This document shows positions 20,271 through 53,684 of a stretch of 64,000 nucleotides of DNA, piece by piece (within the stretch, counting starts at the first letter, position 1; every line of letters starts with the position of its first letter). The DNA comes from Niveibacterium umoris. Lineage in GTDB: Bacteria; Pseudomonadota; Gammaproteobacteria; Burkholderiales; Rhodocyclaceae. Location: NCBI RefSeq assembly GCF_014197015.1, contig NZ_JACIET010000001.1, positions 1-64,000 of the forward strand, written 5' to 3'. Position numbers and translations under genes: made by a program. The notes under the pieces are model-generated. The model saw only the letters and a list, made by a program, of their open reading frames with translations, ran no database searches and was not told the origin of the DNA.

Positions 20271-21200
20271 TCAAGTGGTCGCGTGAACGCTTACTTGCTT
20301 AATCAAGGGGGCGATATCGCCCGGGGTCGGCGGGGTAGCACCGGCGTGCAGACATGCTGCGCTGCCGCAGGCAATGGCATGAGCGAAGTGCTCCGGCCAT
20401 GACGCTCCGGGCGCCTGCATCAGGCTTGCGACGAGGCCCGCGATCGTGGCATCGCCCGCGCCGACAGTGTCGACTACCTTGACGGCGGGGGGCGCTGCCG
20501 TCCATTCCCTGTCGGCGACAAAGAGGCTCGCGCTTCTCGCGCCGGTTGTGTAAAGGACAGGCTTGCCGCCGCGCGCGGCGAGCAGCGACGGCAGCGCATC
20601 GGTGGCGTTGGCTGTGCGATAGAGGCCGCAAAGGTCTTCATCCGAGACCTTCACGACATCGGCAAGGGCGAGCATCTGCTGGAGCGTCGCGTCGTAGCGC
20701 TCGTCCATCAGTACCCGGTAATTGGGGTCATAGCTGAGCTTTACCCCTTGCTGATGCAGCGCGTGGGCGAGATCGACCAGGCGCTGCGCGAGGCCGGGCC
20801 GGGTGAGGCTGATGCCGCCGAAGTGCGCCCACTGGATCGTTTCGCGCCAGCCCTGCGGCAGAAGCGCGACGTCGAATTCGAGATCGGCCGCGCCAGCGCC
20901 GATGAAGAAATACGCGGGTGGCCGTGTCTGATGGACGATTGCCAGCAGCGGGGCGGCGTGGGCCCGCTGCAGGTAGCGCAGATCAAGGCCTGCACTGGCA
21001 CTGGCGTCAGCAAGCGCATCGCCGAAACAATCCTTGCTGACGCAACCGGCGAAGGCACTGGCCACACCGAGCGCGGCGGCGGCACGGCCAACGTTCCAGC
21101 TTGCGCCGCCGTTCTTGGCGTGCCACGCATCGCCTTCGCCGCGGATCATGTCAGTGAGCGCTTCGCCAAAGCTGACGAAGCGCGCGAGCGGCAGTGTCAT
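20271..21200 (-). CDS. PfkB-family sugar kinase (probable fructokinase)
   Basis: A 309-residue ribokinase/PfkB-family kinase. The N-terminal FVSFGEALTDM and GGASWNVGRAAAALG motifs bind sugar; the C-terminal DTVGAGDATIAG is the PfkB signature with the catalytic aspartate and anion hole. The ATG at 21200 overlaps the stop of the upstream isomerase gene by 3 bases. Placed after an AGE-family sugar isomerase and a LacI regulator, the likely reaction is fructose to fructose-6-phosphate. Specificity is inferred from context; 2-keto-3-deoxygluconate kinase is an alternative. Confidence 0.88.
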   Translation of the reverse strand: MTLPLARFVSFGEALTDMIRGEGDAWHAKNGGASWNVGRAAAALGVASAFAGCVSKDCFGDALADASASAGLDLRYLQRAHAAPLLAIVHQTRPPAYFFIGAGAADLEFDVALLPQGWRETIQWAHFGGISLTRPGLAQRLVDLAHALHQQGVKLSYDPNYRVLMDERYDATLQQMLALADVVKVSDEDLCGLYRTANATDALPSLLAARGGKPVLYTTGARSASLFVADREWTAAPPAVKVVDTVGAGDATIAGLVASLMQAPGASWPEHFAHAIACGSAACLHAGATPPTPGDIAPLIKQVSVHATT

Positions 21201-22408
21201 GCGTGATGTCCCAGTTGGCCGAGGACTTCGTAACAAGCGCCCATGGTGTGGTAATCGACCTTGCCGGCCGGGCTCTTCTCGTCGCTGTAAGGCTTGTTGT
21301 CCCCGGTGAGGATGCGGAACCAGGCGCCGTAGCGATGATCCACGAAGTGCCGCCAGGCGTAGTCCCAGATGCGGTCATACCAGGTCCAGTAGCCGGACTC
21401 TCCGGTGCGGATCGCCAGGCACGCGGCTGCGGCAAGGCTCTCAGCCTGCACCCAGAAATACTTGTCGTCGTCGCAGATGCTGCCGTCGGGCGCGAAGCCG
21501 TAGTAGATGCCGCCATGTGTATCGTCCCACGCGCGCTGGAGCGCCGTGTCGAACAGGTGGCGCGCACGAGGCAACAGCCATGCGGGATCGTTCGCGAGTT
21601 GCGCACGATGCCGTTCGAGCGTCAGCAGCAGCTTGGCCCATTCGGTCAGATGCCCGGGTTGATAGCCCCAGGGCCGGAAGATGTTGCTCTTGTCGTGGCG
21701 GTTGTAGTCCCAATCGACCGACCAGTCGGCCTTGTAGTGCTCCCACATCATGTCGCCGGCGAGCGCTGCCTGACGGACGGTGATGTTGTGCGCAAGCCGT
21801 TCGGCGCGATGCAGGTGACGGACTTCTCCGGTTGCGTCGTAGGCCGCAAGCATCGCCTCGCAACTGTGCATGTTGGCATTCTGACCGCGGTAGTCGCTGA
21901 CCACCCAATCGGCATCCGCCTCGTCGGCGTAGAGGCCAGCTGCTTCGGACCAGAATCGCGCTTCCATCAGCGCGATGGTCTCGTCAAGCCATGCGCGGCA
22001 TTCGGTGATGCCGGCCATCAATGCATGTGCGTAGGCCAGTACCACGAAGGCGAGGCCGTAACAGTGATTGGTCGAGTCGGTGACGGTGGCTTTGCCGGTT
22101 TCGTCAAGCTGCAAGGTCCATGCATAGCCGCCATTGGGTTGCCGGTGCGCCTCGCGCAGGAAGCGGACGGCATGCATGCACGCGTCGCGATAGGCGTCGT
22201 TGCCGAAGCGACGGTAAGCCATCGCGTAGGTAAAGACGAATCGCGTGCTGCTGACAAGGTGACGGCTGTCACTATCGTAGATGCTTCCGTCATCGCGGAA
22301 GTAGTGGAACATGCCGCCGCGGGGATCGATCGCTCGCGGATGGTAGAAAGCCATCGTATGGCGGATGTGCGCCAGCAGGAATTCGGGCGCGCGAAAGTTC
22401 GGGTTCAT
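21197..22408 (-). CDS. AGE-family sugar epimerase/isomerase (probable mannose isomerase)
   Basis: A 403-residue (alpha/alpha)6-barrel protein of the N-acylglucosamine 2-epimerase family. Motifs such as HLVSSTRFVFTYAMAY, YQPGHLTEWAKLLL, DDDKYFWVQAES and EKSPAGKVDYHTMGACYE are those of the mannose isomerase / mannose 2-epimerase branch. The histidines of GHLTEW and DYHTMG correspond to catalytic positions. The start at 22408 overlaps the end of the LacI gene by 4 bases; an upstream in-frame extension of 38 residues has no similarity. It is expected to interconvert mannose and fructose (or glucose) in the cytoplasm and feed the kinase downstream. Confidence 0.88.
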   Translation of the reverse strand: MNPNFRAPEFLLAHIRHTMAFYHPRAIDPRGGMFHYFRDDGSIYDSDSRHLVSSTRFVFTYAMAYRRFGNDAYRDACMHAVRFLREAHRQPNGGYAWTLQLDETGKATVTDSTNHCYGLAFVVLAYAHALMAGITECRAWLDETIALMEARFWSEAAGLYADEADADWVVSDYRGQNANMHSCEAMLAAYDATGEVRHLHRAERLAHNITVRQAALAGDMMWEHYKADWSVDWDYNRHDKSNIFRPWGYQPGHLTEWAKLLLTLERHRAQLANDPAWLLPRARHLFDTALQRAWDDTHGGIYYGFAPDGSICDDDKYFWVQAESLAAAACLAIRTGESGYWTWYDRIWDYAWRHFVDHRYGAWFRILTGDNKPYSDEKSPAGKVDYHTMGACYEVLGQLGHHA

Positions 22409-23424
22409 GATTCGACGCCTCCAAGGTCGTCTGGCGCGATGCGCGCGCTGCCACGCACCACGAGTTCGACAGGCAGCACGACCTTCGTAGCGGGCTTGCC
22501 TGCGGTGATGTCGGCAAGGCACTGCATGCCGATGCGGCCCATTTCTTCCTTTCCGATGCGCAGCGTCGTCAACGGCGGGGTCGAGAGTGCGGCCGCGCCG
22601 ATATCGTCGAAGCCGATGATCGAGATGTCTTCGGGAATCCGCACGCCGCGACGCTGGCAGGCACGCATCGTGGCCAGGGCGCAGACATCGTTGTAGGCAA
22701 AGATGGCTTCGGGCGGGGTCGGCCGCGCAAGCAACTCATCGACCGCGCGGGCGCTGGCGCCTTCGGGGTCGTCCGAGCGATCCAGCAGGATCTCGAGCTC
22801 GGGGTCACCGGGAATCCCGTGGTGAAACAGCGCGGCGCGGTAGCCGCGCATCCGCTGCAGGATGCTGTGGTGCGACAGCGGCCCATGGATGAACGCGATG
22901 CGACGGTGGCCCGATGCGATCAGTCGGGAGATGGCGGTAAAGGCGCCACCTTCGTTGTCGGCATTGATGGCGGGCAGATCGCGCCACTGGTAATCGATCA
23001 GCACCAGGGGGTGCCCGGTGGCGACCAGCTCCGAGAGGACTTCATCCTCGAGAAACCCGGCGCACAGGAACCCGTCTGGCTCGTGAAGGGCAACGATCAT
23101 GTCGTGCAACGGGTCGGTCGGGGCGACCGAAAACAGCGACATCGCAATGCCGTGCTCTCGTGCTGCGGCTTCCGCGCCCTGCACTACATGCGAGAAGAAC
23201 TGGTTGCCGGTCAGCGTGGAGTGCTGGCGATGAAGCAGGCACACGACGCGCTTCAACGGACGGGCACGCAAGCGCCCGATGTCGTATCCCAAGGTGTCTG
23301 CCGCGGCCAGGATGCGTGCGCGGGTCTCATCGCTGAGACCCGGTTGGTTCTTGAGTGCACGGGACACGCTGCCGACCGACACGCCGGCGCGCGCTGCCAC
23401 TTGGCGAATGCTCACTGGTTTCAT
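22405..23424 (-). CDS. LacI-family transcriptional regulator
   Basis: A 339-residue repressor. The helix-turn-helix and hinge are at residues 1-60 (SIRQVAARAGVSVGSVSRALKNQPGLSDETRARILAAA, quoted in parts: VAARAGVSVGSVSRAL). The sugar-binding periplasmic-binding-protein-like domain follows to the end (IIGFDDIGAAALSTPPLTTL). It heads a leftward operon with the isomerase and kinase, with overlapping start/stop codons. It is divergent from an ABC importer. Two identical palindromes GTTTAGTAAAC lie between the units and are the likely operators. Confidence 0.95.
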   Translation of the reverse strand: MKPVSIRQVAARAGVSVGSVSRALKNQPGLSDETRARILAAADTLGYDIGRLRARPLKRVVCLLHRQHSTLTGNQFFSHVVQGAEAAAREHGIAMSLFSVAPTDPLHDMIVALHEPDGFLCAGFLEDEVLSELVATGHPLVLIDYQWRDLPAINADNEGGAFTAISRLIASGHRRIAFIHGPLSHHSILQRMRGYRAALFHHGIPGDPELEILLDRSDDPEGASARAVDELLARPTPPEAIFAYNDVCALATMRACQRRGVRIPEDISIIGFDDIGAAALSTPPLTTLRIGKEEMGRIGMQCLADITAGKPATKVVLPVELVVRGSARIAPDDLGGVES

Positions 23425-23451
23425 GGCGCGCAAGTATCCCGCACGGACGGC

Positions 23452-23462
23452 GTTTAGTAAAC
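23452..23462. promoter_or_regulatory. Operator-like palindrome, copy 1
   Basis: GTTTAGTAAAC: arms GTTTA and TAAAC around one central base. It lies 28 bases before the lacI-type start codon, so a bound repressor would block its own operon. An identical copy lies 141 bases downstream. Confidence 0.65.
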
Positions 23463-23470
23463 AAAAGTGC

Positions 23471-23500
23471 TTGCAGCTTTGATAAAGATCATGGTATACC
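23471..23500 (+). promoter_or_regulatory. Candidate promoter, importer side
   Basis: TTGCAG at 23471-23476, an 18-base spacer, then TATACC at 23495-23500. It lies directly downstream of operator copy 1. A second candidate, TTGCCG at 23577 with TAAACT at 23599 (16-base spacer), overlaps operator copy 2. Which one is used cannot be told from sequence. Confidence 0.35.
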
Positions 23501-23592
23501 CTGATTTGCAAGTCAGCATTAGCTGTCTTGGCAATTAGATGTTGCGTTGCAAGGTCGAAATGAACAAAAAATGCGCTTGCCGTTCTTTTGTT

Positions 23593-23603
23593 GTTTAGTA
23601 AAC
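23593..23603. promoter_or_regulatory. Operator-like palindrome, copy 2
   Basis: An exact second copy of GTTTAGTAAAC, about 98 bases before the importer start codon. It overlaps a possible -10 hexamer TAAACT at 23599-23604. Two spaced identical sites suggest repressor looping or independent control of the two divergent promoters. Confidence 0.65.
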
Positions 23604-23700
23604 TGCATTATGTTCAGTCGGCTCTAAGAAGGGGCCCGCTCGCTCATGCGCTTATGGGGCGATGTCGGGTTACCGCCAGCAGCACGGAGGAGAAACCACA

Positions 23701-24960
23701 ATGAAGGAGACAAAAATGCGTGTAGCGGGAATTGCTCTGGCAGTCGGTCTGGTTTTCGGTATGAATGCGGCGCGTGCCGCTGAAATCGAAGTGCTGCACT
23801 GGTGGACCTCGGGTGGCGAGGCAAAATCGGTGGCTGAACTCAAGAAGATGCTTGAGGCCAAGGGCCACAAGTGGAAAGACTTCGCAGTGGCTGGCGGCGG
23901 TGGCGAAAACGCGATGACGGTGCTCAAGTCTCGTGTCGTTTCGGGCAACCCTCCGGTGGCCGCACAGATCAAAGGCCCGTCGATTCAGGAATGGGGCGAG
24001 ACCGGAAAGCTCGCCAACATCGATGCGACCGCCAAGGCCGAAAAGTGGGATTCGCTGCTGCCGGCTGGCGTGGCGAACATCATGAAGTACAAGGGGCATT
24101 ACGTGGCGGCGCCGGTGAACGTGCACCGTGTGAACTGGATGTGGGCCAACCCGGAAGTCTTCAAGAAGGCCGGGGCGGAAGTGCCGAAGACCTGGGACGA
24201 GTTCTTCGTCGCGGCCGACAAGATCCAGAAGGCAGGGTTGATCGCGGTGGCGCATGGCGGACAGCCGTGGCAGGACTTCACCGTGTTTGAGTCGGTGGTG
24301 CTCGGCGTAGGCGGCCCGGCCTTCTACAAGAAGGCGCTGGTTGACCTTGACCAGGCTTCGCTGAAGAGCGACACGATGGTCAAGTCCTTCGAGGTATTCG
24401 GCAAGGTACGCAAGTACATCGACAAGGACAGCGCCAACCGCGACTGGAACCTGGCGACTGCGATGGTGATCAATGGCAAGGCCGGCATGCAGTTCATGGG
24501 CGACTGGGCCAAGGGTGAGTTCACCGCCGCCGGCAAAGTGCCGGGCAAGGACTTCATCTGCGCCGCCGCACCGGGAACGGACAAGGGCTACACCTTCAAC
24601 GTCGACAGCTTCGTGATGTTCCAGCAAACGAATGCGGATACCACGAAAGGTCAGGGCGACCTCGCTGCGGCCATCATGAGCAACGAGTTCCAGGAAGTCT
24701 TCAACCTGAACAAGGGCTCGATCCCGGTTCGCCTGGGCATGAAGATGGACAAGTTCGACGACTGCGCGAAGATGTCCTCCAAGGACTTCGTCGCAACGTC
24801 CAAGTCGGGTGGCCTGGTTCCGTCGATCGCGCACGGCATGGCCGTTCCGTCGGCGACCGCCGGTGCGATGCAGGACGTCGTGACCCAGTTCTTCAACGGC
24901 ACGGGTGTCACACCGAAGCAGGCTGCTGACAAGCTGGCTTCCGCCGCCAAGACCAAGTAA
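23701..24960 (+). CDS. gtsA: ABC sugar-binding protein, GtsA-like
   Basis: A 419-residue extracytoplasmic solute-binding protein (family 1). Signal peptide MRVAGIALAVGLVFGMNAARA is followed by mature AEIEVLHWWTSGGEAKSV, close to the glucose/mannose binding proteins of Pseudomonas (GtsA type), with KWKDFAVAGGGGENAM and KGPSIQEWGETGKLANID also characteristic. Two starts are possible: 23701 behind GGAGGA, or 23716 (MRVAG) behind AAGGAG; either leaves the signal peptide intact. It is the first gene of the importer operon, and a stable hairpin after it probably lets this protein be made in excess over the permeases. Confidence 0.92.
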   Translation: MKETKMRVAGIALAVGLVFGMNAARAAEIEVLHWWTSGGEAKSVAELKKMLEAKGHKWKDFAVAGGGGENAMTVLKSRVVSGNPPVAAQIKGPSIQEWGETGKLANIDATAKAEKWDSLLPAGVANIMKYKGHYVAAPVNVHRVNWMWANPEVFKKAGAEVPKTWDEFFVAADKIQKAGLIAVAHGGQPWQDFTVFESVVLGVGGPAFYKKALVDLDQASLKSDTMVKSFEVFGKVRKYIDKDSANRDWNLATAMVINGKAGMQFMGDWAKGEFTAAGKVPGKDFICAAAPGTDKGYTFNVDSFVMFQQTNADTTKGQGDLAAAIMSNEFQEVFNLNKGSIPVRLGMKMDKFDDCAKMSSKDFVATSKSGGLVPSIAHGMAVPSATAGAMQDVVTQFFNGTGVTPKQAADKLASAAKTK

Positions 24961-24978
24961 GCGGCATTGCACGGCAAG

Positions 24979-25000
24979 GGGCGGGGCTGCGGCTCCGCCT
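24979..25000 (+). terminator. Intercistronic attenuator hairpin
   Basis: GGCGGGGC at 24980-24987 pairs with GCTCCGCC at 24992-24999 (one G-T wobble) around a TGCG loop. There is no T-run. Its position between binding protein and permease genes is typical of mRNA-stabilising or attenuating stem-loops in ABC operons. Confidence 0.55.
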
Positions 25001-25074
25001 CTGTCGCAGAGTCCGGAATGCAGGGGCGCGGCATGCGGCCGCCTGCAGGGACGACGTATGCTCGGAGTTGCCCA

Positions 25075-26016
25075 ATGAGTGGTGAGACCGCCCCGGTCGC
25101 CAGCAGTCCGATCGCAGGTAAGCGTGCTCCAACGAGCAGCCTGTACGACCTGATCGAGAACTGGTTGCCCAAGATCGTGATCGCGCCGACTTTTGTCGCG
25201 TGCCTTGTTTTCGTGTACGGCTACATCTTGTGGACGGCCATCCTCTCGATGACGCCTTCACGCATGCTGCCGACCTACAGCTTCGTCGGCTTCGAGCAGT
25301 ACACCAGCCTGTTCGACAATGATCGCTGGTGGCTGGCGTTGAAGAACCTGGTGATCTTTGGCTTGCTCTTCGTGATCATCTGCCTCGTGGTGGGCTTGCT
25401 GCTGGCGATCCTCCTCGATCAACGCATCCGCCTCGAAGGCTTCATCCGTTCGATTTACCTGTACCCGATGGCCTTGTCGTTCATCGTCACCGGCACTGCC
25501 TGGAAGTGGGTCCTCAACCCGGGGCTGGGTATCGAAAAAGTCGTACGGGATATCGGTTTCTCGGACTTCACCTTCGATTGGCTGGTGAATCCGGATCGCG
25601 CCATCTACACCGTAGTGATCGCGGGGGTGTGGCAATCGTCCGGCTTCGTCATGGCGCTGTTTCTCGCCGGCCTGCGCGGGATCGACGACTCGATCATCAA
25701 GGCCGCGCGAGTGGATGGCGCTTCGATGCCGCGCATCTACTGGCGCATCATCCTGCCCAGTCTGCGCCCGGTCTTCTTCTCCTGCTTCATGATCCTGGCG
25801 CACATCGCGATCAAGAGCTTCGACCTTGTCGTGGCGCTGACCGGCGGCGGACCGGGCTTCTCCAGCGACGTGCCCGCCACCTTCATGTACACCCATGCCT
25901 TCACGCGCAACCAGATCGGTCTGGGGGCAGCCAGCGCCATGATGATGTTGATGATCATCGTGACGGTCGTGGTGCCGATGATCTGGTCAGAGACCCGGAG
26001 GACGAGCAATGGCTGA
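25075..26016 (+). CDS. gtsB: ABC sugar permease, GtsB-like
   Basis: A 313-residue MalF-type inner-membrane permease with six predicted transmembrane segments (first at about 40-62). The EAA loop that docks the ATPase is AARVDGASMPRIYWRIILPSLRP. The ATG at 25075 (MSGETAPV) sits behind a CGGAG ribosome-binding site; the frame is open further upstream without similarity. It ends 8 bases into the next permease gene. It forms the membrane channel with GtsC for monosaccharide uptake. Confidence 0.92.
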   Translation: MSGETAPVASSPIAGKRAPTSSLYDLIENWLPKIVIAPTFVACLVFVYGYILWTAILSMTPSRMLPTYSFVGFEQYTSLFDNDRWWLALKNLVIFGLLFVIICLVVGLLLAILLDQRIRLEGFIRSIYLYPMALSFIVTGTAWKWVLNPGLGIEKVVRDIGFSDFTFDWLVNPDRAIYTVVIAGVWQSSGFVMALFLAGLRGIDDSIIKAARVDGASMPRIYWRIILPSLRPVFFSCFMILAHIAIKSFDLVVALTGGGPGFSSDVPATFMYTHAFTRNQIGLGAASAMMMLMIIVTVVVPMIWSETRRTSNG

Positions 26017-26893
26017 GGGACGCGTCATCCTGCCCGGCGAGTCGCGCTTCTCGTTTGGCCGCATCTTCGTTTACGGCGCGCTGGCTCTGGTCTGCCTGTA
26101 CTACCTGATGCCACTGTATGTAATGGTGACGACCTCGCTCAAGACGTTGGACGAGATCCGCGTCGGCAATCTGCTTGCGTTGCCCGAGACGGTCACCCTG
26201 GAGCCGTGGGCCAAGGCCTGGGGTTCCGCGTGCACCGGCGTGCTGTGCGGTGGGCTCAAGGGTTACTTCTGGAATTCCGTTTCCTTCGTGGTTCCAGCGG
26301 TGCTGATCTCGACCGCGATCGGCGCTTTCAACGGCTATGTGCTGACGATGTGGCGCTTCCGCGGCTCGGACACCTTGTTTCTGCTGCTGATGATGGGGTG
26401 CTTCATCCCCTTCCAGGTGGTGTTGCTGCCCATGGCGCAGACGCTCGGGCTGATGGGGCTGGCGAGTTCGATCGCCGGCCTGATCTTCGTGCACGTGGTC
26501 TATGGTCTGTGCTTCACGACCTTGTTCTTCCGGAACTACTACGTGTCGATTCCGGAGGAGTTGGTGAAAGCCGCCCGCATCGACGGCGCGGGCTTCGTGC
26601 GCATCTTCCTGCGCATCATCCTGCCGCTTTCGGGCCCGATCATCGTCGTGTCGATCATCTGGCAATTCACCCAGATCTGGAATGACTTCCTGTTCGGCGT
26701 GGTGTTCTCGTCTGGCGAACGGCAACCGATTACCGTGGCGCTCAACAACCTGGTGAATACCTCCACCGGCGTCAAGGAATACAACGTGAACATGGCGGCG
26801 GCCATCATTGCCGCCTTGCCTACGCTGTTCGTCTACGTGGTTGCCGGCAAATACTTCGTGCGCGGCCTGACCGCCGGGTCGGTCAAGGGCTGA
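26009..26893 (+). CDS. gtsC: ABC sugar permease, GtsC-like
   Basis: A 294-residue MalG-type permease with six transmembrane segments and the EAA loop [23 protein letters not shown]. The N-terminal [21 protein letters not shown] segment is the first membrane helix. It overlaps gtsB by 8 bases, which implies coupled translation and 1:1 stoichiometry. It is followed by the ATPase gene after 31 bases. Confidence 0.93.
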
Positions 26894-26924
26894 AGCCCCT
26901 CAGAAGACAAGGGAAAAAGACAAT

Positions 26925-28040
26925 ATGGGTGCGCTATCCATCCGCAACGTCCGCAAGGCCTTCAACCAGACCGAGGTGCTCAAGGGCATCGACATCGAGA
27001 TCGCAAAGGGGGAGTTCCTGATCCTGGTGGGGCCGTCGGGCTGTGGCAAATCGACCTTGCTGAACCTGATTGCCGGGCTGGACAACATCACGTCCGGCGA
27101 CATCCTGATCGACGACCGCGTCGTCAATCACCTGTCACCGAAGGACCGCGACATCGCGATGGTGTTCCAGTCGTATGCGCTGTATCCGAACATGACGGTG
27201 CGCCAGAACATCGCGTTCGGGCTTGAGATGCGCAAGATCCCCCCGGCGGAACGCCAGGCGAGTGTCGACCGCGTTGCGCAGATCCTGCAGATCGGCCACC
27301 TGCTCGATCGTCGCCCGTCGCAACTCTCCGGCGGGCAGCGGCAGCGAGTTGCGATGGGCCGGGCAATCGCCCGCAATCCGGCCCTGTTCCTGTTCGACGA
27401 ACCGCTGTCGAACCTCGACGCCAAACTGCGCGTCGAGATGCGCACCGAGATCAAGATGCTGCATCACCGTCTCGGTACCACGATCGTGTACGTCACCCAC
27501 GATCAGGTCGAGGCCATGACGCTGGGTGACAAGATCGCAGTGATGAACGCCGGTTCCGTGCAGCAATTCGGCACCCCGCACCAGCTCTACGACGACCCGG
27601 CCAATCTCTTCGTAGCGGGGTTCATGGGCTCGCCGTCGATGAACTTCATCAACGCGCGGGTCGAAGATACGGGCGACGGGGGCTGCGGTCTGCGTCTGGA
27701 GTCGGACGGGCAGACCTTCATCTTCCCGGCGTTCAACCAGACCGGCGGGCTTCGCAAGTATGTCGGCAAGGAAATCGTGTTCGGGATCCGGCCGGAGCAG
27801 ATCACCCATGTGCCCCCGGGTTTGGGCGATTTGCCGAACCTGCGCCGGGTGTCGCTCAAGGTGCATCTCGACGAGCCCACCGGGCCGGATACGCTGGTCC
27901 TCGTGCTGATCAACGGGGGCAAGGTGACCTGCCGGGTGCACCCGGAATTCGCGCGACCTGCCGGCGAAATGCTCGATCTCCAGTTCGACCTGAGCAAGGC
28001 GGTGTACTTCGATCCCGACACGCAGGAGCGCATCCGCTGA
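26925..28040 (+). CDS. gtsD: ABC sugar transporter ATPase, MalK/UgpC type
   Basis: A 371-residue nucleotide-binding subunit. Walker [12 protein letters not shown] is near residues 38-48, the signature [15 protein letters not shown] near 135, Walker [15 protein letters not shown] near 155 and the switch histidine in [11 protein letters not shown]. The C-terminal 130 residues form the MalK-type regulatory/TOBE domain, a site for control by signals such as enzyme IIA or inducer exclusion. It is the last gene of the importer operon and is followed by a terminator. Confidence 0.95.
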
Positions 28041-31867: not shown

Positions 31868-32251
31868 CTTGTCTGGTAAATCGTGGCCCGTGGTGCGCAG
31901 AAGATAGCGCTTCCGCGGCGCGAACGGGCGTGCGCGGCGAGCGTTTTGCCGCCGGTCGTGGGGTTGGGATCTTTGTTCGCCACATGGACGAAACGCCCTC
32001 GCGGCGAAGCGTTGCGGAATTCACAACAGTGCTGGTTGCCTCTGCCCGGAATGCCGGCGGCCCGGGTGACGCCTAACTGCTTGGCAGGCCATGGATTTGT
32101 GCAATCGCCATGGATCAAGGTGTTGCGGCCATGATGGATTCATAAATGAATGCAATCAAGCGGGCTCATGAGGATCGTTAGATTGCCGCTCGCGTACCGG
32201 TAACGGCACGCGGGGGCCGGGGCAATGCATCGATTGAATGGAGTGGTACTC
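31868..32251. other. 384-bp intergenic region before the CBM21 gene
   Basis: No convincing gene here. It contains three spaced copies of GCCATG-GAT (32088, 32107, 32128). A nested hairpin follows: ATTGCC 32182-32187 with GGCAAT 32221-32226 outside, and CGCGT 32191-32195 with ACGCG 32208-32212 inside. The rest is featureless. The features cluster toward the downstream gene, so they are more likely its regulatory region than that of hyi. Confidence 0.5.
32088..32139 (+). repeat. Three direct repeats GCCATG(AT)GAT
   Basis: GCCATGGAT at 32088-32096 and 32107-32115, and GCCATGATGGAT at 32128-32139. The spacings of 19 and 21 bases are about two helical turns, as expected for a regulator binding one face of the DNA upstream of a promoter. 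Confidence 0.45.
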
Positions 32252-33028
32252 ATGACTCAAGTTTGGATCCGTATCTTCCTGGCCGTGTTGCTGGCCTTGC
32301 CTGGTTTTGCGCTGGCGGCGGGCGAAGTCGGCTTGCTCAAGGCCAACAGCTACATCTCTTACTACCGTGGCTATTCCCATATCGGGCGCTTCGAGGTGCA
32401 GGTTGCGAACCTCGCGTATGAAAAGCAGGTCAGCGCCTACATCAAGCGTAGCGACGGGGTGTGGGTCGACTACCCATTGAGCTTCGTTCGCGCGACCAAC
32501 GGGAACAAGGAAATCTGGGCCGCGGATTTCTACAGCTACTCCTTGCCCGATACCGGCAGCAACATCGAGTTCGCGGTGAAGTACGCGGTTGGCGGCGCGA
32601 CCTACTGGGACAACAACGGTGGCGCCAACTACAAGCTTGGCAAGGGCGCCGGCACCTTGCTCGGGAACGGCGTGAATGTGTATGGCGCCTACTTCAGCCC
32701 GGAAGTGGTGGTGGGGGCAGGCACGACGACTTGGTCCAACTACACCACGGTGCGCAATCTCGCCTACGCCAAGGAAGTGAAGGTTGTCTATACGACCGAC
32801 AACTGGGCGACGACCAAGGTGGCCACCGCGACTTACAGCAAGGACTTCTGGAACTCGAGCTACTACACGATCCCCAACCCGAACGTGATGGGCTTCGAGG
32901 AATGGCGCTACACGCTGGATATCGGCAACGCCACACAGGTCGAGTACGCCATCTCGTACAAGGTCAACGGCGTGACCTACTGGGACAATAACTACGGTCG
33001 CAATTACTTCAGCCGCCTGATTCGCTGA
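32252..33028 (+). CDS. Secreted protein of two CBM21 starch-binding modules
   Basis: A 258-residue product. The ATG at 32252 follows GGAG with 8-base spacing; residues 1-23 are a signal peptide ending ALA. Two CBM21-type modules fill the rest. Module 1 is at about 40-130 (FEVQVANLAYEKQVSAY ... GGATYWDNNGGANY) and module 2 at about 155-255 (YTTVRNLAYAKEVKVVYTTDNW ... GVTYWDNNYGRNYF). The repeated NLAY(E/A)K and YWDNN-G-NY motifs are the family hallmarks. CBM21 binds starch or glycogen and is best known from fungal glucoamylase and eukaryotic glycogen-targeting phosphatase subunits. There is no catalytic domain. It probably binds alpha-glucan outside the cell or in the periplasm. Monocistronic, with its own terminator. 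Confidence 0.8.
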   Translation: MTQVWIRIFLAVLLALPGFALAAGEVGLLKANSYISYYRGYSHIGRFEVQVANLAYEKQVSAYIKRSDGVWVDYPLSFVRATNGNKEIWAADFYSYSLPDTGSNIEFAVKYAVGGATYWDNNGGANYKLGKGAGTLLGNGVNVYGAYFSPEVVVGAGTTTWSNYTTVRNLAYAKEVKVVYTTDNWATTKVATATYSKDFWNSSYYTIPNPNVMGFEEWRYTLDIGNATQVEYAISYKVNGVTYWDNNYGRNYFSRLIR

Positions 33029-33056
33029 ACGCCAGCATCGCGGCGCATCCAGCAGG

Positions 33057-33084
33057 GCGCCCGCTTTGGCGGGCGCTTTGTTTC
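33057..33084 (+). terminator. CBM21 gene terminator
   Basis: GCGCCCGC at 33057-33064 and GCGGGCGC at 33069-33076 form a perfect stem with a TTTG loop, followed by TTTGTTTC. Confidence 0.85.
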
Positions 33085-47851: not shown

Positions 47852-48453
47852 TGCAACCTGCTAAGGCCTTTCCAGGCAACTCAAGCTCAGCGCAACGAGG
47901 CGTGAGCCTGATCGAAGTCTTGGTCGCAATGGTCGTTGTTGCGATCGGGCTGCTCGGCGTATCCGGCATGTTCGTCATGAGTACGCGTGGCACCGCCGAT
48001 TCGGCTGCCCGTACTGCCGCGGCGCAGGCGGCGTATGAACTCGCAGACAAGGTACGTGCGAACAACGCGGCGATTGCGACCTACCTGGCGCCCACCTGGG
48101 GCGTGGCGACCGCTATCCCTACTGCCGCTGCGCCCGCGACCAACTGTTTCACGGTGGCCTGTACACCGGCCCAGCAGGCTGAATTCGACATGGTGGTCTG
48201 GGCGCGTTCGCTGACCAATGCGGCGCTGGCGGGTATGGCTCAAGCGCGAGCGTCCCGGCTCACCGCCGCGCAAGCAGTGTTGTGCCGTGATCTGACGCCG
48301 GACGACGGCACCCCGGCGGCGCCTGCGTGCAGCGGGGGCGCGACGGACCCCCTTGCCATCAAGATCTGGTGGAGCGAACGGGCGCTGAACGCCACCGAGG
48401 GCGCGGGCGTGCCGAGCCTGCAGCGACGTTACGTGATGAGTTTTGTGCCATGA
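47848..48453 (+). CDS. pilV: Type IV minor pilin PilV
   Basis: A 201-residue minor pilin. The prepilin site QRG/VSLIEVLVAMVVVAIGLLGV retains Glu5, and Ala/Thr-rich globular sequence follows. The ATG at 47848 overlaps the fimT stop; Met2 at 47851 is an alternative. It belongs to the PilV subclass by the GLLGVSGM segment after the helix. It co-assembles with PilW and PilX at the pilus tip. Confidence 0.92.
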   Translation: MMQPAKAFPGNSSSAQRGVSLIEVLVAMVVVAIGLLGVSGMFVMSTRGTADSAARTAAAQAAYELADKVRANNAAIATYLAPTWGVATAIPTAAAPATNCFTVACTPAQQAEFDMVVWARSLTNAALAGMAQARASRLTAAQAVLCRDLTPDDGTPAAPACSGGATDPLAIKIWWSERALNATEGAGVPSLQRRYVMSFVP

Positions 48454-49337
48454 CTTCCAGCTTCCTTCACAAAATGCCCAAGAACACGAACCAAAGCGGT
48501 GTGTCGCTCGTCGAACTGATGGTGTCGATGGTGATCGGCATGCTGGTAGTGCTGGCCGCAACCCAGTTGTTCGGCGGCAACGTGACTGCGTCGCGGGCCA
48601 CGAAGGACATTGCCCAGATTCAGGAAGGCGCCCGCGTCGGTTTTGACATTCTCGCGCGGCAGATTCGCATGGCGGGGTTTCATCCCGTTTCGTCATTCGA
48701 CAATTTCAATATCATCAACGCAGGATGCGTGGCTGATTCGGCCCAGGCGATTTGCGGCGTCAATGATGCCGCCGCGCCGACTCCGAATCTTTCGGATGAG
48801 GTAAGGGTGCGTTTCTGGGGGGCTGACGGGTCCACGCCCGGCGTGGCGGATGGCGCAACGATGGACTGCGAGGGCCTCGCTGTCGGTGCGGGGCAGGTTG
48901 AAGAAGAGCGCCTGCGTATCGTTACTTTGCCGACCAACCCTGGCGACGCCAGCACAAACACCCCTACCCTGGTGTGCGAAGTGATTCGTGGCGCGGCCAA
49001 CATCGCCGCCGGGGGACCGATTGCCGCGCAGGTGCCGCTGGTGTATGGCGTCGACACCATGCAGATCCTCTATGGCGAGGACACCAACGGCGACAGCTCG
49101 CCGGATATCTGGCGCCCGGCGAATCTCGCCAACATGGCGAATGTCAATGCTGTTCAGGTGGCGCTGCTGCTGAGAAGCGAGGGCACCAACAACCCGAGCC
49201 TGACTTACACATACAGACTATTTGGCGACCTGTATGGAGGTGCAGGGGATGCCGGCGCGAGTTTCGCCGACCCCTCTGATGGGCGTGCCCGCCGCATTGT
49301 CACCTTCTCGGTCAATCTCCGGAACCGGACGAAATGA
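48450..49337 (+). CDS. pilW: Type IV minor pilin PilW
   Basis: A 295-residue minor pilin. The leader ends QSG/VSLVELMVSMVIGMLVV with Glu5, and GARVGFDILARQIRMAGF is the typical PilW segment. The large C-terminal globular domain contains four cysteines in two likely pairs. The ATG overlaps the pilV stop, and the last codons overlap the pilX start, so the whole cluster is translationally coupled. Confidence 0.92.
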   Translation: MTSSFLHKMPKNTNQSGVSLVELMVSMVIGMLVVLAATQLFGGNVTASRATKDIAQIQEGARVGFDILARQIRMAGFHPVSSFDNFNIINAGCVADSAQAICGVNDAAAPTPNLSDEVRVRFWGADGSTPGVADGATMDCEGLAVGAGQVEEERLRIVTLPTNPGDASTNTPTLVCEVIRGAANIAAGGPIAAQVPLVYGVDTMQILYGEDTNGDSSPDIWRPANLANMANVNAVQVALLLRSEGTNNPSLTYTYRLFGDLYGGAGDAGASFADPSDGRARRIVTFSVNLRNRTK

Positions 49338-49927
49338 AGATTCTGATAACGCACCGTCGCCGGCAGCGCGGCGCCACGCTGATCGTCAGTCTGTTGTTGC
49401 TGGTGATCATTACCATCATGGGTTTGGCGGCCATTCGCACCTCCACGCTTGAAGAGCGCATGGCCCGCTACGGGGTCGAGCAAGGGGTCGCCTTTCAGGC
49501 TGCCGAAGCTGCCCTGAGGGACGCCGAGATCGACCTCACCGGCAGTACCAGCACGCGCTTTGGCATCGTGCAAGGCGTGACCGGTTTTGCTGCCGATTGC
49601 AACGCGACCGCAGCCGCTGCAGCGAGAATCAATGGTCTCTGCCTGCCGGCGCCGGCGGGGTCTGCACCCGTATGGCAAACACAGATGGGGGTGGCAGGCG
49701 CTGCAGTGACCTATGGCACCTATGGAGGCAATCTGCCGTTGCCAACCACAGGAGGGCCGTCGTCGGTGGCGCAGCAACCTCGATACGTAGTCGAAGGGAT
49801 TACCACCCCCGGCCCGGGAACCTCACTCAAAGTCGGTACGGTGAATGCGCGTTATCGCGTGACAGCGCAGGGGTTTGGTCCGCGCCAGGAAGTTCAGGCC
49901 TGGGTCCAGACCATGGTTCAACCCTGA
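49334..49927 (+). CDS. pilX: Type IV minor pilin PilX
   Basis: A 197-residue protein. The N-terminus is QRG/ATLIVSLLLLVIITIMGLAA: the usual Glu5 is Val, as is common in PilX/GspK-type pilins that cap the tip. RMARYGVEQGVAFQAAEAALRDAE follows as in the family. It lies between pilW and pilY1 and likely presents PilY1 at the pilus tip. Confidence 0.9.
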   Translation: MKILITHRRRQRGATLIVSLLLLVIITIMGLAAIRTSTLEERMARYGVEQGVAFQAAEAALRDAEIDLTGSTSTRFGIVQGVTGFAADCNATAAAAARINGLCLPAPAGSAPVWQTQMGVAGAAVTYGTYGGNLPLPTTGGPSSVAQQPRYVVEGITTPGPGTSLKVGTVNARYRVTAQGFGPRQEVQAWVQTMVQP

Positions 49928-49946
49928 ACCAACAGGAGAATTGATC

Positions 49947-52900
49947 ATGCAGATTTCGAATGGACTGAAACGGAAATTGGCTGGCGGACTGGCCTCAGTG
50001 CTGGGTATTGCCTGGCTGCCGGCAATGGCCGCGCCTCTGGCGCTGTCGCAGGCGCCGTTGTTCCTCGCGATTCCGCAAAAGCCGAATCTGCTTGTTACGC
50101 TGGATGATTCGGGCAGTATGACCTGGGCTTACGTGCCGGATGCGTATGGATCCGACATGCAGACTGGTACGTCGTTCAGCCCGAAGCGCATCTTCAGCGC
50201 TGACTACAACTCGATGTACTACAACCCGGCGACTACCTATTCGCCCCCCTTGAAGGCGGATGGCACGTCTTTCAGCACTTCCTTTTCCGCGGCGTATTAC
50301 AACGGCTTCGACCCCTCCCAAGGGTCGGTCGACCTGCGTACCGCGTACCGGCCGACAAAAGACTACAACCCGACCGGCGCGTCACATACTCTAGCGACTC
50401 ACCCGAACGACCTGACCGCACTCGGGGTCGCGACGAAAACGACCGCTGGCCCGGCGTATTACTACACGTTAGACAAGACGAATAGCGGTTGCGCTTCGCC
50501 CTTTACCGCGGACGCCTGCTACGACGTGCATCTGGTCACTGCCGAAACGGCCGCCCAGCAGCAGAACTTTGCGAACTGGTACTCCTTCTACCGAACCCGC
50601 AATCTGGCCGTCGCGTCGGCGGCGACGCTGGCGTTCTCGCAACTGGATGGAGGCATCCGACTCGCCTACCAGTCGATCAACAAGTGCAATTCGTTCAATG
50701 ATTCTTGCCAGGGATGGGATTCGGTCGGTCGCAAGAACAAGATCCGGCGCTTTGAATCAAACAAGGCCGATTTCTACAACTGGCTTTCGCGCTTGCCGGC
50801 GAGCGGCAGCACGCCTTTGCGTACCGCCTATCAGCGTGTCGGCAACTACGTCATGAACGCCAGTCTGGGTGACGGCGATGTATACGCCTTCGATCCGAAC
50901 GTATCGGGCGGCGCCAATCCCAAATACGCCTGTCGCTCGACCTATGCCGTGCTGATGACCGACGGTATGTGGAACAGTGATACCCCGACAGCATGTACTG
51001 GCGTTGCAGGGTGTACCAGTTCCGATATCGATGGCACCGGCTATACGTTGCCTGACGGAAAGGTTTACTCGCCGATCAACCCGTACAAGGACGGGACCGG
51101 CACGGCAAATAATCTTGCTGACATTGCATTTGCCTATTGGAGCCGCGACCTGCGGACGGATATCGGCAATCAGATCATCCGTCGCAGGGCTGACAAGGAT
51201 CCGACCAAGACCTCGCCGGATGCAACGGTGTTGTCGAAATGGACCGATGCCGAGTATTGGGCTGCGCAGAATGACCCGGCGAACTGGCAGCATATCGGCC
51301 TGTACGCAATCGGGCTGGGGCTCGCCAAGGGTTTGCCGCTGGCAACGCCTCCGCTGACATGGGATCCCGCAGTGGGCACCTTCGGCGGTAGCTATCCGGA
51401 CATTGTTTCTGGCGCCACCACCTGGCCTGTTGTGAGCGCCGGCACGGACAACCCAGCGAAAATCGCGGATCTGTGGCATGCCGCGATCAACGGGCGTGGG
51501 CGCTTCTATGCCGCGGAATCCGCGAGTGACGTGGTGAAGGCATTTGCGGAAATTGTTGCTGCTATCAACACTACCGAAGCGGCGGCGGGTGCGGCAGCCG
51601 CCAATACGCAGTCCTTTGTTGCGGGTGCGGCCACCTACATTAGTGTCTATCACCCCAATGCTTCGCCGGCAAAAGACACCGCAATACGCCCTTGGTGGGC
51701 GGCTCTGACCTCGTCGGACTCGCAACTGTGGTGGGGGGACATGGAGAAACTGCCGCTCGTGAAGACAACAGGATCGCCGCTGGATATCTCCTCCACGCCC
51801 ACTTGGTCGGCTGCGGCGGGTTTGATTCATGATGCGAGTGTTGTTGCTACGCCGAACAAGTATGTCGATGCGCGCACAATTCTCAGTTATGACCCGTCCA
51901 AGACCGGGTCAGCCGGCGCTATCCCTTTCCGTTGGGCGAGTTTGTCTTCGTCCCAGCAAACCGCGATTACTGGCGCCACGTCCCCCAGAACCGGGGCGGA
52001 CCGTTTGAACTGGTTGCGCGGGGATGCGACCTACGAAGGTGACTACGACGCGTCTAGTGGTAAAGGTGGATTGCGCGCCCGCCCGGTCACGAAGCTTGGC
52101 GACATCGTCTATTCCTCGCCGGTGCTGGTTTCAACGCCCAAAGACGGTTGGCCTGATCCGACCTACGCGGCATTCCGTTCTGCCAAGTCCAGCCGCACCG
52201 GAGTGATCTATGTTGGCGCGAACGACGGCATGCTGCACGGATTCCGTGAATCCGATGGTAAGGAGATCCTGGGTTATGTTCCGTCGGAGGTTTATCCCTA
52301 CCTCCGCACGCTGACCGAAGCGAGTTATCCGCATCGTGCTTACGTTGACGGCCATATTCAGATCAATGACGCACAATTCAGCGATGGTTGGCATACCGTA
52401 TTGGTCAGTGGCTTGCGTGCCGGCGGCAAGGGCTACTTCGCGCTGGATGTGACCACGCCGTCGTTCTCAGAGGGTTCTCCGGGTTCAACCGTGCTGTGGG
52501 AATTCAACAGCACGACTGATTCGGCGAATATCGGTTATTCCTATGGGCGCCCGGTGATCGCGAAACTGCGTAACGGCAAGTGGGCCGCCATTTTCGGGAA
52601 TGGCTACAACAGCACCAGTGGCAAAGCGGGGCTTTATATTGCCTATATCGAAGCAGGCAAGTCTGGCTGGGTCTCCGGTTCCAACTTCCGCTTCATCGAC
52701 ACCGGTGCCACCGTCGGTGCCTCGCCCAATGGCCTTTCTTCGCCGGCGGTGATTGACATCGACGGCGACGGCACCGCGGACTACGCCTATGCCGGAGACC
52801 TCTACGGTAATGTGTGGAAGTTCGATCTGACCAGTACTTCCATGGCGGCCTGGAGCGTCTCCAAGAAGCTCTTCTCGGCTGTTGACACCGGTGGCAAGGC

Positions 52901-53684
52901 ACAGCCGATCACGACCGCGCCGGAAGTCATGTTGCATCCCAAGGGCGGTTACATGGTGCTGGTGGGAACCGGCAAAGCGATTGAAGATATCGACATGGCC
53001 GACCAGAGCCTGCAATCCTTTTACGGAATCTGGGACTCTTCGTCGCCGGATACCATCACGCGTAGCCGAATGCTTCAGCACGTGTTTACGCTCACTGATA
53101 CTGAGACGCCGGTAAATCCCGCCACGGGCGTCACGTACAGTTGGGAATTGCGGACCGTCGATAAAAATACGCCGAATTGGTACGACCCGGCCACCAATCC
53201 GACGGGCCAACTGGGGTGGTACGTTGATTTGAAGGAGGGGGTGTCGACGCTCGCGGCCATTGGTGAGCGCGTGATCGAGGACCCTCAGGCGCTCAATGGA
53301 CACGTCCTGTTCGTATCAGCGACGCCGACAAATGACCCGTGCAATGGGGGGGGAAGCGGCTGGATCAATGAAATGGACGCAATAACCGGTGCCCGCTTGC
53401 CGGTGCCGCCCTTCGATCTGAATGAAGACCTGAAGTACGACGACTCAGACAAGATGGATACAGCTACCGAAGGCCGACAATCGCCGACAAGTCGGCGTGT
53501 GAGCCCGGTGGGTGGCCTGCCGGTCGTGATCAAGGACAAGACCATTTGCCCTGCATCAGGATGTGGGCCCGCTTCATTGACTTGTAACCGACTGGTCAAA
53601 CGGAGCGACGGGTCGGTGGAAGTCATTAGCGGCATGTGTCCGGCCTCAACTGGCCGCCTGAACTGGCGCGACCTCACGCGCTAA
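49947..53684 (+). CDS. pilY1: Pilus tip adhesin/assembly factor PilY1
   Basis: A 1245-residue exported protein with a signal peptide of about 29 residues (LASVLGIAWLPAMAAP). The N-terminal half contains a von Willebrand-A-like region with MIDAS-type DDSGSM near residue 52. The C-terminal half is the PilY1 beta-propeller: TGVIYVGANDGMLHGFRESDG, and the calcium loop DIDGDGTADYAYAGDLYGNVWKF. PilY1 primes pilus biogenesis with the minor pilins, controls retraction and mediates adhesion and surface sensing. Start at 49947 behind AGGAG. Full length, no frameshift seen. Confidence 0.96.
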   Translation: MQISNGLKRKLAGGLASVLGIAWLPAMAAPLALSQAPLFLAIPQKPNLLVTLDDSGSMTWAYVPDAYGSDMQTGTSFSPKRIFSADYNSMYYNPATTYSPPLKADGTSFSTSFSAAYYNGFDPSQGSVDLRTAYRPTKDYNPTGASHTLATHPNDLTALGVATKTTAGPAYYYTLDKTNSGCASPFTADACYDVHLVTAETAAQQQNFANWYSFYRTRNLAVASAATLAFSQLDGGIRLAYQSINKCNSFNDSCQGWDSVGRKNKIRRFESNKADFYNWLSRLPASGSTPLRTAYQRVGNYVMNASLGDGDVYAFDPNVSGGANPKYACRSTYAVLMTDGMWNSDTPTACTGVAGCTSSDIDGTGYTLPDGKVYSPINPYKDGTGTANNLADIAFAYWSRDLRTDIGNQIIRRRADKDPTKTSPDATVLSKWTDAEYWAAQNDPANWQHIGLYAIGLGLAKGLPLATPPLTWDPAVGTFGGSYPDIVSGATTWPVVSAGTDNPAKIADLWHAAINGRGRFYAAESASDVVKAFAEIVAAINTTEAAAGAAAANTQSFVAGAATYISVYHPNASPAKDTAIRPWWAALTSSDSQLWWGDMEKLPLVKTTGSPLDISSTPTWSAAAGLIHDASVVATPNKYVDARTILSYDPSKTGSAGAIPFRWASLSSSQQTAITGATSPRTGADRLNWLRGDATYEGDYDASSGKGGLRARPVTKLGDIVYSSPVLVSTPKDGWPDPTYAAFRSAKSSRTGVIYVGANDGMLHGFRESDGKEILGYVPSEVYPYLRTLTEASYPHRAYVDGHIQINDAQFSDGWHTVLVSGLRAGGKGYFALDVTTPSFSEGSPGSTVLWEFNSTTDSANIGYSYGRPVIAKLRNGKWAAIFGNGYNSTSGKAGLYIAYIEAGKSGWVSGSNFRFIDTGATVGASPNGLSSPAVIDIDGDGTADYAYAGDLYGNVWKFDLTSTSMAAWSVSKKLFSAVDTGGKAQPITTAPEVMLHPKGGYMVLVGTGKAIEDIDMADQSLQSFYGIWDSSSPDTITRSRMLQHVFTLTDTETPVNPATGVTYSWELRTVDKNTPNWYDPATNPTGQLGWYVDLKEGVSTLAAIGERVIEDPQALNGHVLFVSATPTNDPCNGGGSGWINEMDAITGARLPVPPFDLNEDLKYDDSDKMDTATEGRQSPTSRRVSPVGGLPVVIKDKTICPASGCGPASLTCNRLVKRSDGSVEVISGMCPASTGRLNWRDLTR

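Follow-up and report, generated by a model that had tools for sequence, protein, structure and literature searches.

A free-standing, putatively exported tandem of CBM21 modules, found in triplicate in a starch-enzyme-rich bacterial genome

We analysed a window of 64 kb (the whole stretch of DNA under study, C1:1-64000) from a 4.80 Mb genome in 17 contigs, here referred to as G000, and identified a gene for a protein made of two CBM21 modules behind a signal peptide. The main surprise is a free-standing bacterial CBM21 tandem with an export signal that occurs three times over in a starch-enzyme-rich genome: six CBM21 modules were detected in three proteins of G000. Its sequence features suggest that the window protein is probably an exported, non-catalytic alpha-glucan-binding (capture) protein. 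The family, the modules, the kept site residues, the signal-peptide features, the three paralogues and the starch-rich genome were all computed here; from them we infer glucan binding, the final location and a benefit for starch use. The features of the gene are as follows:

32252..33028, + strand: coding sequence, 258 aa, putatively exported tandem CBM21 protein (ORF and Pfam CBM_21)
32240..32243, + strand: GGAG, likely ribosome-binding site, 8 nt before ATG 32252 (by eye)
32252..32320, + strand: predicted Sec-type signal peptide, residues 1-23 (heuristic and alignment of 13 doublets)
32396..32638, + strand: CBM21 module 1 (genome profile scan and alignments)
32639..32743, + strand: linker between the two modules
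32744..33007, + strand: CBM21 module 2 (genome profile scan, alignments and model)
33051..33082, + strand: intrinsic-terminator-like stem-loop of 14 pairs, 3′ of the gene (consensus match)

The ORF was chosen by codon-usage gene calling, and its orthologues in two relatives align with it over the full length at 71–73% identity. It is a genuine gene, with the ATG at 32252 backed by the GGAG and by a Sec-type N-terminus. This N-terminus, MTQVWIRIFLAVLLALPGFALAA, resembles a Sec signal peptide by a heuristic (AxA-type sites and a Kyte-Doolittle maximum of 2.87 over 10 residues), with cleavage predicted after ALAA, and it is from these features that export is predicted. No lipobox, dockerin, repeats or other anchor was seen in the Pfam listing or in the 13-doublet alignment. 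The stem-loop 3′ of the gene is consistent with a single-gene transcript; five terminator-like stem-loops were found in the region by consensus match, compared with 1.8 expected.

A first-pass annotation, made from the letters only, had described two CBM21 modules after a signal peptide and no enzyme domain, and both statements held. Pfam CBM_21 (PF03370) matched the protein in two stretches (E 1.3e-27, 96.7 bits against a cut-off of 28.9), and both motif pairs were located: NLAYEK (aa 53-58) with YWDNNGGANY (aa 118-127), and NLAYAK (aa 169-174) with YWDNNYGRNY (aa 243-252). No enzyme family reached its cut-off in a Pfam listing up to E 1. The profile search that it had proposed for each half was also positive, at 46.3 and 55.7 bits in the genome scan, each above the curated cut-off. 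In a sequence search of the PDB, all credible matches were CBM21 proteins (PPP1R3B, PPP1R3C, PPP1R3A and Rhizopus glucoamylase), and a profile of the 13 doublets matched PPP1R3C, PPP1R3B and Rhizopus CBM21 with E from 9e-15 to 3e-10. By every feature tested, namely profile, fold and site residues, the window protein is a CBM21 member.

The binding sites of two CBM21 proteins served as reference. For Rhizopus, PMC3398936 gives W47, Y83 and Y94, and Y32, F58 and Y67, together with N29, K34, N96 and N101; for PTG, PMC9582199 gives N177, F180, E181, K182 and Y203 in site II and W193, W246, N248 and N253 in site I. By alignment, the equivalents in module 1 are N53, Y56, E57, K58 and F78 (site II) and W71, W119, N121 and N126 (site I), W71 being placed by a 45-row alignment and lying one residue off W193 against PTG. 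Those in module 2 are N169, Y172, K174 and Y195 (site II) and W185, W244, N246 and N251 (site I); F78 and Y195 were placed by pairwise alignments and by eye, the module-2 loop being out of register in the 45-row alignment. Both modules thus retain the aromatic, Asn and Lys positions through which the PTG and Rhizopus modules bind beta-cyclodextrin, and on this basis up to four glucan sites are predicted. The Y83 position holds Ala, as it does in PPP1R3B.

Across 44 modules of 22 proteins (the second G477 doublet being left out), the W47 position is W in all 44, the Y94 position is W in 42, and the Y32 position, the site II aromatic, is Y or F in 27. The last is Y in the window-type proteins (6/6), while in the two paralogues that lie in tandem, and in their orthologues, it is Y in module 1 (8/8) and A, P or S in module 2 (8/8). 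That module 2 of the tandem pair lacks this aromatic throughout means that the sites drift, and it might be supposed that the window protein has the CBM21 fold with another ligand; its own modules retain both sites, and we consider this highly improbable. The paralogues offer a natural contrast between a site II aromatic in both modules (window protein) and one in module 1 only (the pair). If exported, a bacterial protein with nothing but two CBM21 modules would be a case of the module acting on its own, with no enzyme attached, and could serve as a small tandem starch-binding reagent.

The first-pass annotation had also suggested a structure prediction with a look at the aromatic residues; a model of module 2 was CBM21-like, and the site aromatics aligned in both modules, as described above. 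The model, built on a shallow alignment of four rows (the two window modules and two Paenibacillus modules), reached a pLDDT of 77.2 and a pTM of 0.69 and showed the immunoglobulin-like beta-sandwich of the CBM21 type. Foldseek ranks 1-9 were all CBM21 chains, and the comparison with the PTG CBM21 (7QFA_A) gave a VIA Z of 9.4 and an rmsd of 2.9 over 90 aligned residues. Because GH13 N-domains and other Ig-like starch modules scored within 1 Z of this match, the fold alone indicates a starch-module-like sandwich and not the family. Modelling of the whole protein gave a poor result (pLDDT 50, two-row alignment), with the PTG CBM21 still ranked first in the structure search; the structural conclusion rests on the module-2 model.

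CBM21 is best known as a part of amylolytic enzymes in fungi and of glycogen phosphatase subunits in animals. The window protein shares sequence family, fold and site I/II residues with PPP1R3C/PTG, PPP1R3B and PPP1R3A (7QF7, 7QFA, 7QM2, 2EEF and 2M83); however, their CBM21 is eukaryotic, intracellular, single and joined to a PP1-binding region, while the window protein is a tandem with an export signal. It is not an intracellular PPP1R3-type protein with a PP1-binding region, as it starts with a signal peptide and only about 24 residues precede module 1. With Rhizopus oryzae glucoamylase CBM21 (2DJM, 2V8L), whose ligand is starch, it shares the family and the Y32/W47-type sites; that module is attached to an enzyme and has poly-Asn loops, which are only partly present here.

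As glycogen-targeting subunits are the closest solved relatives, a storage-glucan role was considered, in which the protein would bind glycogen made by the cell itself, either once cells have lysed or within a compartment, much like PPP1R3 in animal cells. A CBM21 doublet fused to an endonuclease/exonuclease/phosphatase (EEP) domain, which has no signal peptide and adjoins a GH57 branching enzyme in G424, agrees with such a role. However, the CBM21 proteins without a signal peptide branch apart from the window protein in the tree, and because of its signal peptide the latter should not meet cytoplasmic glycogen, so that we regard this role as very improbable.

Starch-binding proteins built from other modules were compared too. 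PMC9112005, which also mentions SusE/SusF of Bacteroides, describes Sas20 of the Ruminococcus bromii amylosome as secreted and non-catalytic, with two glucan-binding parts; Sas20 has a dockerin and domains, X25 among them, that are unrelated to CBM21, and the window protein has CBM21 and no anchor. Export signal, lack of an enzyme domain and more than one glucan module are all found in the window protein, which, by analogy, may plausibly work like SusE/F or Sas20. It does not belong with them, as only CBM_21 passes the Pfam cut-off, with no X25 and no dockerin. The window protein could be examined as a case of Burkholderiales holding starch by free-standing modules, like gut bacteria with SusE/F and Sas20. 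SusE/SusF are exported proteins of repeated X25-type starch-binding modules with no enzyme, anchored as lipoproteins and encoded in the sus operon; neither the anchoring nor such an operon was seen for the window protein.

CBM21 was detected in 4 of 7 genomes of the genus and, in overlapping samples that all count G000, in 5/61 genomes of relatives, 7/399 of the order, 3/370 of the class and 1/397 of the phylum (G000 itself). Among the other carriers in the order, the doublets of G435, G477 and G657 begin with a signal-like stretch, G433 and G482 lack such a start, and that of G510 is ambiguous. G073 has a single weak match under the cut-off. The earlier annotation had called CBM21 mostly eukaryotic; the module is rare in bacteria, yet exported doublets are predicted also in other Burkholderiales and in Paenibacillus. 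In the literature no work on a bacterial CBM21 protein that stands alone was found by a search outside which most subscription papers lay, and the mentions of "CBM21" in PMC6989110 are strain names and not the module. The CBM21-EEP fusions at L142:210-1718 and L032:8444-9946 have no signal peptide; the one in G424 adjoins the GH57 branching enzyme, and the one in G023 is near a PLD-domain protein.

A protein of Eleftheria terrae annotated as "carbohydrate-binding protein" (WP_301260523.1), encoded on a plasmid, has the same architecture and 44.5% identity over 91%, but a different neighbourhood of siderophore and unrelated genes with no adjacent starch gene. A relative in Paenibacillus oenotherae (32%; L007:8037-11594) combines two CBM21 modules with about ten Ig-like repeats and stands behind a LacI-SBP-GH13 cluster. 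The position of orthologues relative to amylases, which the first-pass annotation had wished to see, differs: the Paenibacillus gene lies behind GH13 genes, while neither the window gene nor that of Eleftheria has an adjacent starch gene. The adhesin-like build of the Paenibacillus protein would fit a role in attachment to granules of starch or to cells rich in glycogen. In the window protein neither an anchor nor repeats nor a lipobox was seen, and a soluble doublet could do no more than bridge, which makes such a role quite unlikely for it.

A tree built from 22 doublets placed window-type and fused-type proteins in supported groups and the tandem-pair type in a group at 91/92; the deep branches were not resolved, and long branches meet at Paenibacillus. 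A plasmid origin was considered and dropped, with the Eleftheria record as the only one on a plasmid, and so was a phage origin: no relative was found in phages, and viral contigs gave 21 pattern stretches, none of them a relative. PF00128 (GH13) was present in 8/8 tested carriers outside the genus and in 17/26 non-carriers hand-picked from the list of relatives. As many non-carriers also have GH13, the co-occurrence is weak; G003 has 14 GH13 matches and no CBM21. GH13 match counts, which are pieces and not genes, were higher in the seven order-level carriers than in the 26 non-carriers (one-sided p 0.0023, kinship ignored; G424, of another order, left out).

None of the 18 PF00128 matches of G000 lies within the window, in line with the earlier remark that no amylase is close by, which applies to this stretch and not to the whole genome, and the nearest one on the same contig starts at 402662. 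Counted as stretches and not genes, G000 also has seven PUD/CBM41, two CBM25 and three CBM20 matches. Several of the GH13 genes examined lack a CBM and begin with what looks, by eye, like a signal peptide or a lipoprotein start. The pullulanase contains four PUD domains (CBM41), with secretin, T2SSE and T2SSF genes in its vicinity, and a 1569-aa CBM25/CBM20 protein adjoins T2SSG and T2SSE genes. Two small exported CBM41-only proteins were also detected, one of them inside a LamB-MalK-SBP-GH13 cluster. Among the roles proposed earlier, alpha-glucan capture is favoured by the kept binding residues and the exported starch enzymes, and storage packaging and adhesion received no specific support. 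For capture, Sec export would bring the window protein to the periplasm, and type II secretion may pass it on to the outside of the cell. There the two modules, with two glucan sites each, would hold starch, glycogen or long maltodextrins by avidity, and the held substrate would stay close to the amylases that are exported, to the pullulanase and to the maltoporin/ABC route, which are encoded elsewhere in the genome.

Gene order around the window gene is partly kept in relatives. In G001 it reads ETF-QO, CBM21, hydroxypyruvate-isomerase-like, HD-GYP and CBM41 lipoprotein (the names ETF-QO and hydroxypyruvate isomerase are sequence readings, Pfam giving the latter only a TIM-barrel family), with the CBM41 lipoprotein gene about 4 kb from the window-gene orthologue. 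G002 fits this order over two contigs. G006 has the CBM41, HD-GYP, isomerase and ETF-QO genes; where G001 has about 1.2 kb with the CBM21 gene, G006 has 98 bp between isomerase and ETF-QO, and the flanks align. G000 lacks the CBM41 gene at this locus, which is replaced by a sugar operon (20271-28040) with an ABC transporter, a LacI regulator, a GlcNAc-2-epimerase-family protein and a PfkB kinase. The window gene is thus present in some of these genomes and absent from others, and in relatives its place is close to a gene for an alpha-glucan module. The CBM41-only lipoprotein beside the HD-GYP gene in G001 (L028:13859-14347, lipobox LVAC by eye) has like genes in G002 and G006.

The other two CBM21 proteins of G000 lie in tandem at C2:1207.8-1209.5 kb, preceded by genes of the NMT1-type solute-binding and Cache-HAMP-histidine-kinase kinds and followed by a gene that reads as TerC-like from its sequence. 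The tandem pair L026:8279-9972 has orthologues in L027, L029 and L031, with one or two solute-binding and Cache-kinase units upstream. Perhaps the role of the free CBM proteins is to offer alpha-glucan to membrane signalling proteins, or to buffer it for them, as c-di-GMP and histidine-kinase input. The pair follows the solute-binding protein and a Cache-HAMP-HisKA-HATPase kinase (by Pfam in G000, with like sequence starts in G001, G002 and G006), a gene of Cache-HAMP-HD_5 build (HD-GYP type) lies two genes away from the window gene in an order kept in G001, and the same genome encodes a CBM41-TM-GGDEF protein. However, the solute-binding protein of the pair resembles sulfonate/urea binders (below cut-off) and not sugar binders, G006 has the HD-GYP gene without a window-type CBM21 gene, and such neighbourhoods may be accidental. 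The link of the doublets with signalling proteins is suggestive only, and we consider a sensing role unlikely.

The CBM41-TM-GGDEF protein (L088:9325-11121, G000:C2:1572324-1574120) has 598 aa, an exported CBM41/PUD (29-125), a transmembrane stretch and a GGDEF domain with intact RLGGDEF, which makes it a candidate for a diguanylate cyclase that senses alpha-glucan. PUD matches in frames of 607-654 aa were seen in G001, G002, G003 and G006. No paper on CBM41 together with a diguanylate cyclase was found in the literature search, which again left most subscription papers outside.

Going beyond capture by a single protein, a possible but doubtful reading is that the genus has a split starch system, in which CBM21 doublets and CBM41 proteins are exported separately and act in trans, with the same modules feeding signalling. 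The signalling part draws on the CBM41-GGDEF protein, the CBM41 lipoprotein beside HD-GYP and the CBM21 pair behind the Cache histidine kinase. If true, proteobacteria would have their own counterpart of Sus or the amylosome, one in which alpha-glucan controls c-di-GMP directly. Its strong form, an exclusive trans model, is ruled out by CBM41 on the pullulanase and CBM25/CBM20 on the 1569-aa protein.

No promoter motif shared by the CBM21 and starch gene upstream regions of G000 was detected; 16-mers occurred in at most 3 genes, and in 2-3 in shuffles. An AT-rich element, GTCATAAAAATCTTCTAG, Pho-box-like in appearance, precedes the first gene of the tandem pair (G001:C1:4173188-4173205, G002:C44:167119-167136), is conserved in the genus and otherwise nearly absent, and does not occur in the 64-kb window. 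It was rejected as a regulon mark, with one occurrence in G000, one in G001 and four in G002 at up to 3 mismatches. Elsewhere in the window, pilus-type genes were seen at 47902-53684, comprising, by eye, two prepilin-like starts (47902 and 48474) and a PilY1-like protein of 1228 aa.
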